A stretch of DNA of 45,435 nucleotides from Methanimicrococcus sp. OttesenSCG-928-J09 (GTDB lineage: Archaea > Halobacteriota > Methanosarcinia > Methanosarcinales > Methanosarcinaceae): contig JAJDHP010000006.1 in the NCBI GenBank assembly GCA_030266245.1, forward strand, positions 1 to 45,435, read 5' to 3'. The notes beneath the pieces were generated by a model. The model was not told the origin of the DNA, did no database searches, and worked only from the letters and a program-made list of their open reading frames with translations. Shown here piece after piece: positions 27,760-29,055 of the stretch (positions within the stretch are counted from its first letter, which is position 1; each line of letters opens with the position of its first letter). The position numbers and the translations under genes are program-made.

Positions 27760-28527
27760 TTAATGGACTTGGCGAACCATTGTAATTAATTTTTTAGAAC
27801 CCTTCATATCTTTTTTCCCGGATTTCGATCTCAAAGGAAGAATTCTAAATCCGTGCCTTTCATAAAATTTTATGAGATTTTTATTATCTGAGCAATCCAC
27901 ACGAATAACGTTAATACCAATAATTTTGTTGGCTTTTTCAATCAAAGCAAAAATACGCGGAAAAATTGAATCGCCTGACAACTCTGCATCATACCCGTCA
28001 TGGAAATTTTTTGATAGGTGTCCGACAAGATATGTTTCAACAAACTCAAGACGATGAGAAGAAAACTTCACCAATCTGCTTAATTTCTTTTGAGATTCCG
28101 GAGAATTAATCAAATTCGTAGATTTACCGGCAATTGAAAAGTAACCCAATACCTTATGTCGATCCGTTTTCAGTTTAAAAGTACAGCACTTATTACAATT
28201 TTCAAAATCGAACTCACAGATTTTACATTTAGTATTTTCGATCGGTTCGGAAGAAAGAATGAAATAATTACGACAATAATGTTTTCGTTCAAAATCGATA
28301 AATTTTCCACTGAGAATATAATCTTCCAGATCCCTATCCATTGATTTGAAATGAGAAAGCTGAGAACATATCTCAGCTTTAAACATTTCCCAAAATACAC
28401 TTTTAGATGTGCAGAGTTCATGATGGTATGCGTCATTCAATCGGGTTTCTATAAAAGAATCCAGACTGAGAACTAAATAAGAAGAATCACATGAGTTCAT
28501 TACATTTTCTGATTTCCTCAAAAACAT
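27760..28527 (-). CDS. GNAT-fold protein with cysteine cluster, possible toxin of a two-gene module
   Basis: The protein has 255 residues. The C-terminal half looks like a GNAT acetyltransferase: VLGYFSIAG (127-134), VETYLVGHLS (163-172), a helix GDSIFPRIFALIEKA, then VIRVDCSDNKNLIKFYERHGFRIL (about 207-230), the usual last strand-helix. Between the N-terminal part and the fold is C101-x2-C104-x6-C111-x2-C114, a likely zinc site. The start MFLRKSENV overlaps the 49-residue ORF by 41 bases. The same overlap occurs at 30211-30251. A toxin-antitoxin role is inferred from this layout only; a plain acetyltransferase is also possible. Confidence 0.68.
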   Translation of the reverse strand: MFLRKSENVMNSCDSSYLVLSLDSFIETRLNDAYHHELCTSKSVFWEMFKAEICSQLSHFKSMDRDLEDYILSGKFIDFERKHYCRNYFILSSEPIENTKCKICEFDFENCNKCCTFKLKTDRHKVLGYFSIAGKSTNLINSPESQKKLSRLVKFSSHRLEFVETYLVGHLSKNFHDGYDAELSGDSIFPRIFALIEKANKIIGINVIRVDCSDNKNLIKFYERHGFRILPLRSKSGKKDMKGSKKLITMVRQVH

Positions 28528-28636
28528 CCACCTTCACATCTTTGTGTGATTTTGGCGTATTCATAACTTCTTTTAATACCTTGATTGCTTTCTTGTTTTT
28601 AATGACAAGGGGTTCTGTATAAGATGATGTCGCCAT
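28487..28636 (-). CDS. 49-residue protein upstream of GNAT gene, possible antitoxin
   Basis: The ORF starts MATSSYTEPLVIKNKK and ends EEIRKCNELM. A strong GGAGGTG lies six bases before the ATG. A paralog at 30211-30363 shares MATSS, VLxKKA-like and DVFEEIR blocks, so both are real genes. A TATA-like CATTTATAAAC lies near 28703-28712, giving a leader of about 45 bases. It is lysine-rich and charged, with no recognised DNA-binding fold. Its overlap with the GNAT gene suggests translational coupling. Confidence 0.7.
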   Translation of the reverse strand: MATSSYTEPLVIKNKKAIKVLKEVMNTPKSHKDVKVDVFEEIRKCNELM

Positions 28637-28848
28637 TTTTTCACCTCCTGATGCTTAATGTTAATGCTTGTTATAGGCTTCGAAATTTTCAAATTGCAAA
28701 TGTTTATAAATGTGATTAGAGAAGCAATTCCATTTTTAAACTTATTATATATAGAGTTATGTCTGATAAGAAATATTTTATCAGTGGTCCTGAGATTTGT
28801 ACAAATAAATAAGAAGAAACCACGAATTTCGAATAAATTGATAAAGTA

Positions 28849-28860
28849 AATATAATAAAA
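28849..28860 (+). promoter_or_regulatory. TATA box of candidate ncRNA
   Basis: AATATAATAAAA lies about 25 bases ahead of the first stem of the candidate RNA, the normal archaeal spacing between TATA box and start site. Confidence 0.5.
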
Positions 28861-28871
28861 GATTGTATTTG

Positions 28872-29055
28872 AAGTCAGCTGTAGATTCAACAGCGGGAAG
28901 GAGATCTATTCTATTCGCCGCCATCCGGAAGGCGGTTGTAATAAAATAGAACGGACCCAAATATCCCCAGCTTTCCGACAGCTGGTGACAAAAATTAGTC
29001 GGATGCGAAATAGTGAATAGATTCCTTCCAACTTTTGACTTTATTATGTTTTTTT
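28872..29055 (+). ncRNA. candidate structured ncRNA with pseudoknot
   Basis: About 180 nt on the plus strand fold into nested stems: AAGTCA (28872-28877) with TGACTT (29036-29041); hairpin GCTGT/ACAGC (28878-28894); a 15-bp stem with one bulge, 28896-28911 with 29015-29029; TTCGC/GCGAA (28914-28918 with 29005-29009); hairpin CCGCC/GGCGG (28918-28935); hairpin CCAGCT/AGCTGG (28967-28985). The last loop holds TCCGAC, which is complementary to GTCGGA at 28998-29003, a 6-bp pseudoknot. Seven T residues (29049-29055) end it. A TATA box lies upstream. I match it to no known family. It could also be a leader of something not seen. Confidence 0.6.

Follow-up and report, generated by a model that had tools for sequence, protein, structure and literature searches.

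The spacer between nadE and a GNAT-like gene in the methanogen Methanimicrococcus sp. OttesenSCG-928-J09 raises the question of what kind of RNA it may encode, and of why that RNA should stand where it does. The DNA that we analysed (hereafter the window) is a stretch of 45,435 nucleotides of contig JAJDHP010000006.1, and an earlier note, made from its letters alone, had described a compact pseudoknotted RNA of no known class in this spacer, with a promoter and a terminator of its own. The gene order around it is S-layer / GNAT / small ORF / RNA / nadE / VAT-type ATPase, where the S-layer, nadE and VAT names were assigned by reading the translations. Both flanking genes, nadE and the GNAT gene, are encoded on the strand opposite to the RNA, which lies in neither leader, and the stop codon of nadE comes only 39 nt after its closing stem. 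On the other side, the minus strand of 27760-28642 carries a GNAT-like ORF (27760-28527) after an ORF of about 49 amino acids (about 28490-28636) whose ribosome site is good. This arrangement resembles a type II toxin-antitoxin pair, although the Pfam match of the GNAT is just marginal, and the GNAT family is represented by at least seven copies across four genomes of the genus. We found no evidence of a functional link between the RNA and this adjoining small-ORF/GNAT pair.

The structural elements of the RNA are collected in Table 1. The earlier note had located the one-bulge closing stem, the second hairpin with its loop pseudoknot, the TATA element and the terminal T run correctly, and its opinion that such pairing exceeds chance is borne out. 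The fold energy is -55.1 kcal/mol, as compared with -39.0 +/- 4.0 kcal/mol in dinucleotide shuffles (z = -4.04, with 0 of 200 shuffles as good), and in 400 such shuffles neither the best pseudoknot nor the best pair of pseudoknots was equalled. What had been missed is that the first hairpin also forms a pseudoknot, between TCCG in its loop and CGGA at 28952-28955. The partial self-complementarity of the loop ATCCGGAA, which had been taken as a possible mediator of dimers, is better accounted for by this pairing, and dimerisation is unnecessary. In a complete CptIN locus a terminator is expected between antitoxin and toxin. A Rho-independent criterion cannot judge archaeal terminators, the T run of the window included, and the terminator is given here as a prediction.

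Table 1. Elements of the RNA gene in the window, in order of position.
Feature	Position	Strand	Remarks
TATA-like element TAAATATA, predicted archaeal promoter	28847..28854	+	about 25 nt before position 28872 (first base of the interval)
Closing stem P1, 5′ arm	28896..28911	+	15 bp; 28896-28902 and 28904-28911 pair with 29015-29029; single bulged G at 28903
Pseudoknot repeat 1	28917..28955	+	S1 GCCGCC/GGCGGT, S2 TCCG/CGGA, A-rich L2 (pseudoknot scan)
AAAT between the repeats, putative toxin cleavage/processing site	28959..28962	+	position matches the (C/G)AAAT repeat boundaries of most bacterial CptN loci
Pseudoknot repeat 2	28967..29003	+	S1 CCAGCT (28967-28972)/AGCTGG (28980-28985), L1 T, S2 loop TCCGAC (28974-28979)/GTCGGA (28998-29003), L2 TGACAAAAATTA
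AAAT after repeat 2, putative processing site	29008..29011	+	context GCGAAAT; common to other Methanimicrococcus CptI RNAs and bacterial repeats
Closing stem P1, 3′ arm	29015..29029	+	15/15 bases identical across three species
T7 run, predicted archaeal transcription terminator	29049..29055	+	seen directly; homologues T-rich, not identical

When we searched 60 related genomes at the nucleotide level, we found two real homologues, both in Methanimicrococcus. One, in M. blatticola DSM 13328, is 84% identical and occupies the same nadE-linked site, while the other, in a genome that we denote G002, is 81% identical, lies at a different genomic site and is toxin-less, its neighbours being a TRM5/TYW2-type methyltransferase and a distant GNAT. 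A whole-RNA model (R2) run on the relatives gave these three known copies as the only convincing matches. The parts that are paired are those that are kept, amid a diverging leader and flanks: identities to M. blatticola and G002, respectively, are 94 and 88% in the 5′ arm of P1, 100 and 100% in its 3′ arm and 95 and 89% in repeat 2, as against 66 and 46% in the leader and 57 and 35% in the upstream flank; they are 89 and 72% in the TATA region and 77 and 58% in the tail. The TATA-like element itself is identical in the three homologues, though the G002 copy occupies a different genomic site. Both pseudoknots can be folded in all three copies, so that the retention of pairing by which the earlier note proposed to judge the RNA is observed; in the S2 helix of repeat 1, the four pairs of the window correspond to five in M. 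blatticola (TCCGG/CCGGA) and to CCGG/CCGG in G002. The AAAT that precedes repeat 1 in M. blatticola and G002 reads AGAT in the window, where the two remaining AAAT motifs are 49 nt apart. The description as a compact pseudoknotted non-coding RNA with its own predicted promoter thus stands, since structure, TATA element and core are all kept in two other species of the genus.

The homologue at the same site in M. blatticola answers the question of class. There the gene order is S-layer / RNA / cptN / nadE / VAT-type ATPase, and a full cptN gene (a 164-amino-acid ORF) follows the RNA on the same strand at a distance of about 120 nt. The encoded protein scores 189 bits against NCBIfam CptIN (cut-off 90, E 3.7e-56) and matches the solved CptN toxin (PDB 4RMO) with an E-value of 5.5e-22, while its score against Pfam ToxN_toxin, 14 bits, is under the 25-bit cut-off. 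The opinion that the RNA belongs to no known class is accordingly not upheld, as the RNA is homologous to CptI upstream of CptN and shares its repeat layout with the CptI of Clostridia. Judged by sequence, the class is a known one, that of the CptI-type antitoxins of type III CptIN systems.

We examined this assignment against a sample of 50 CptN loci, mostly from Clostridia MAGs together with the archaeal ones, by scanning 260 nt upstream of each toxin gene. A best pseudoknot of -18 kcal/mol or lower was present upstream of 78% of the loci, versus 10% in the downstream control, and nearly all of the 50 loci have pseudoknots like those of the window, most with two units in tandem between (C/G)AAAT motifs and some with one or three. 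The CptI_Er repeat of Eubacterium rectale, taken from the primer in the published work and put through the same scan, gave S1 TACCAC/GTGGTA and S2 CCGAT/GTCGG and folds like repeat 2 of the window. The features by which a CptI RNA can be recognised are tandem H-type pseudoknot repeats of about 45-50 nt, a fold with a short L1, an S2 formed within the S1 loop and an A-rich L2, and A-rich processing sites; the window RNA has the first two, and its AAAT motifs at 28959 and 29008 would serve as the third. In other Methanimicrococcus CptI RNAs the motif after the repeat is GATGCGAAATG.

Compensatory changes in the pseudoknot helix, which the earlier note had named as support for the RNA, are indeed found. 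In a plain MAFFT alignment of 25 repeats, three of which come from the nadE-type RNA with the window included, S2 shows them at all five pairs with 95% of cells paired, and S1 at four of its six. None of 500 shuffles reached the covariation score, and sliding the partner by a single column at least halved it. A model built from 19 bacterial repeats only, with S1 as its sole structure (R3), matched G002 at repeat 2 (E 4.4e-5) and, with E 0.1, at repeat 1 (L003 1588-1648). In the window the R3 match is weak (16.4 bits, E 0.2), yet it is the best on both strands of the 45 kb and falls at 28959-29011. Because of this weakness, membership rests on a chain that leads from the window to G002 and M. 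blatticola and from there to bacterial CptI. No Rfam family reached its gathering threshold at the window RNA, and one chance match was obtained nearby (E 9.5).

Two further observations count against a CptI reading. In the window, repeat 1 shows some degeneration (an S2 of 4 bp, and AGAT in place of AAAT), and the closing stem is no known feature of CptI. Among the loci tested, strong enclosing pairing was found only in the three nadE-type RNAs. We also considered the closing stem as a general feature of CptI, on account of strong duplex energies in four bacterial loci, and discarded the idea when inspection revealed no clear enclosing stem in them. In the nadE-type RNAs, the 15-bp stem would probably protect or present the precursor, or aid termination.

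In M. blatticola the cptN gene lies directly downstream of the RNA on the same strand, while in the window no such gene is found. Neither a whole-genome family search nor a tblastn of the window recovered a CptN relic at the locus. Since cptN is missing beside it, we class the window RNA as an orphan CptI RNA only, and not as a CptIN locus. As RNA and toxin are coupled at nearly all other loci, we infer that the toxin was lost in the window rather than gained in M. blatticola. Taken together, these results make it very probable that the RNA of this stretch is a CptI-type antitoxin of the type III CptIN kind, and that the CptN gene once present at the locus has been lost.

Such orphans recur in the genus. 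Using the 25-repeat model, we searched six Methanimicrococcus genomes and found two further toxin-less arrays, which with those of the window and G002 makes at least four. One is in the window's own genome (G000:C11, 9399-9493, L169 2900-2994, minus strand), where it is flanked by genes for a CorA-like transporter and a TRM5-type methyltransferase, and consists of two near-perfect repeats after a TATTTATA element and before a T-run; elements of this type occupy the equivalent relative position in other Methanimicrococcus CptIN loci. The other two-repeat array (G003:C34:31378-31477, L170 2879-2978, minus strand) lies upstream of a pyridoxamine-oxidase-like ORF. Full CptN genes number four in the genus (G005:C4 and G005:C5 in M. 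blatticola, G003:C67, and G000:C19 in the window's genome), and in two of the four M. blatticola CptN genes the reading frame is broken by stop codons, TAG and TAA (G005:C3, L049; G005:C1, L050 and L051), while their upstream RNAs persist. By eye, the RNAs upstream of CptN at G000:C19:3975-4433 (L046) and G005:C3:209896-210351 (L049) appear to have a different pseudoknot layout, with S1 CTCCG/CGGAG and a longer loop. Across 17 bacterial genomes that hold CptN, the repeat matches at E <= 0.001 number 32, of which 31 immediately precede a CptN gene of the same orientation and one belongs to a degenerate, toxin-less, CptI-like two-repeat array in a Clostridiales MAG (G065:C335, L173 1620-1750). 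The contrast between archaeal and bacterial orphans is suggestive only, the bacterial genomes having been chosen for CptN and the sample being biased to the toxin.

Whether the orphan still has a use is a separate matter. That it is a decaying remnant of a recent toxin loss, with no present function, is a special case of the CptI reading and quite possible, if somewhat short of probable. Toxin genes are eroding in the genus, as the in-frame stops in half of the M. blatticola CptN genes indicate, a degenerate orphan array is known in the Clostridiales genome mentioned above, and the shortened S2 of repeat 1, together with the mutation of the 5′ AAAT, favours some decay. Against simple erosion, the two toxin-less homologues, for all the divergence of their leader and flanks, retain an intact S1 stem in each repeat as well as an intact repeat 2, closing stem and TATA element, and the other toxin-less array of the same genome is near-perfect. 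A function in trans on a CptN from another locus of this genome, for which the single full CptN at C19 would be the candidate, we consider unlikely, since that toxin seems to own a differently shaped upstream pseudoknot RNA (by eye, scan recovery not being clean) and toxin specificity has been reported for CptI RNAs (PMC5086642).

The remaining explanations leave CptI aside. The GNAT gene might be a toxin of which the RNA is the antitoxin, in a new kind of RNA-GNAT pair, and a homologous GNAT (34% identity) does lie near the toxin-less G002 RNA. The orientation differs, though, being divergent in the window and in G002 on the same strand with the GNAT upstream of the RNA; the other members of this gene family have, by our search, no copy of the RNA beside them; and a small ORF immediately precedes the window GNAT, much as a type II pair is arranged, all of which make this reading very improbable. 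Slightly less credible still is that the RNA controls nadE or the GNAT gene as an unrelated riboswitch or other riboregulator, as the position between the two might suggest, given that both are on the opposite strand with the RNA outside either leader, that the G002 copy has different neighbours and that the RNA is homologous to one linked to CptN. A MITE-like mobile element in place of an RNA gene, with the inverted repeat as its ends, is the least plausible of all. Terminal inverted repeats and the different location of the G002 homologue would fit one; each genome nevertheless has a single copy, the nucleotide search of relatives gave no further ones, conservation reaches past the inverted repeats as far as the TATA element, and the internal pseudoknots fit the CptI layout and covary.

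For a CptI-type RNA, the mode of action can be drawn by analogy with the E. rectale system. The precursor would be cut by CptN at the A-rich sites into single pseudoknots, and these would bind CptN head-to-tail, joining two monomers in a heterotetramer and occluding the RNase active sites. The window RNA, apparently an orphan without cptN at its locus, may neutralise a matching CptN coming from outside (anti-addiction), or may be a recent remnant. We tentatively raise the broader idea, more doubtful than the remnant, that the genus keeps stand-alone CptI RNAs, several of them near-perfect, as anti-addiction or immunity against incoming CptIN, and that the closing stem of the nadE type allows persistence in the absence of the toxin. 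The locus is unusual in its archaeal setting, in its closing stem and in lacking a toxin that M. blatticola still has at the corresponding site. A single site seen with and without its toxin makes the fate of an RNA antitoxin after toxin loss, and anti-addiction by RNA, directly testable, in a methanogen genus where several CptIN loci exist alongside four or more CptI RNA genes that lack a toxin.

Type III systems have been described almost wholly from bacteria, archaeal matches being mentioned in passing (PMC5086642). The pseudo-ToxI of phage PhiTE escape mutants is similar to the window RNA in being a toxin-less, antitoxin-like RNA, and is able to neutralise a type III toxin (PMC5086642), but it is a phage-borne counter-defence whereas ours is a chromosomal RNA; an exact 24-base pattern scan of viral contigs gave no viral copy of the latter. 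In ToxIN and AbiQ (antiQ), too, the RNA antitoxin consists of pseudoknot repeats and is encoded ahead of a ToxN-fold RNase, with the difference that their repeats are 34-36 nt long and form triplex-rich pseudoknots (PMC5086642), and that the M. blatticola toxin falls below the ToxN_toxin cut-off of Pfam and well above that of CptIN. The closest known system is the CptIN of Eubacterium rectale (PDB 4RMO; PMC4627078), in which two repeats are processed into 45-nt H-type pseudoknots with a short L1 and a long A-rich L2, and in which a cloned single CptI_Er repeat was given flanking GA/AAG to permit processing (PMC4627078). The window RNA differs in having no toxin at its locus, a predicted archaeal promoter, a 15-bp stem around both repeats and two repeats that are unlike each other in sequence. 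What they have in common is a two-repeat RNA gene of H-type pseudoknots with the same short L1 and long A-rich L2, an S2 of the CCGAU/GUCGG type, an A-rich processing site, putative in the window, a few bases past S2 and, beside the M. blatticola copy, a homologue of the toxin.
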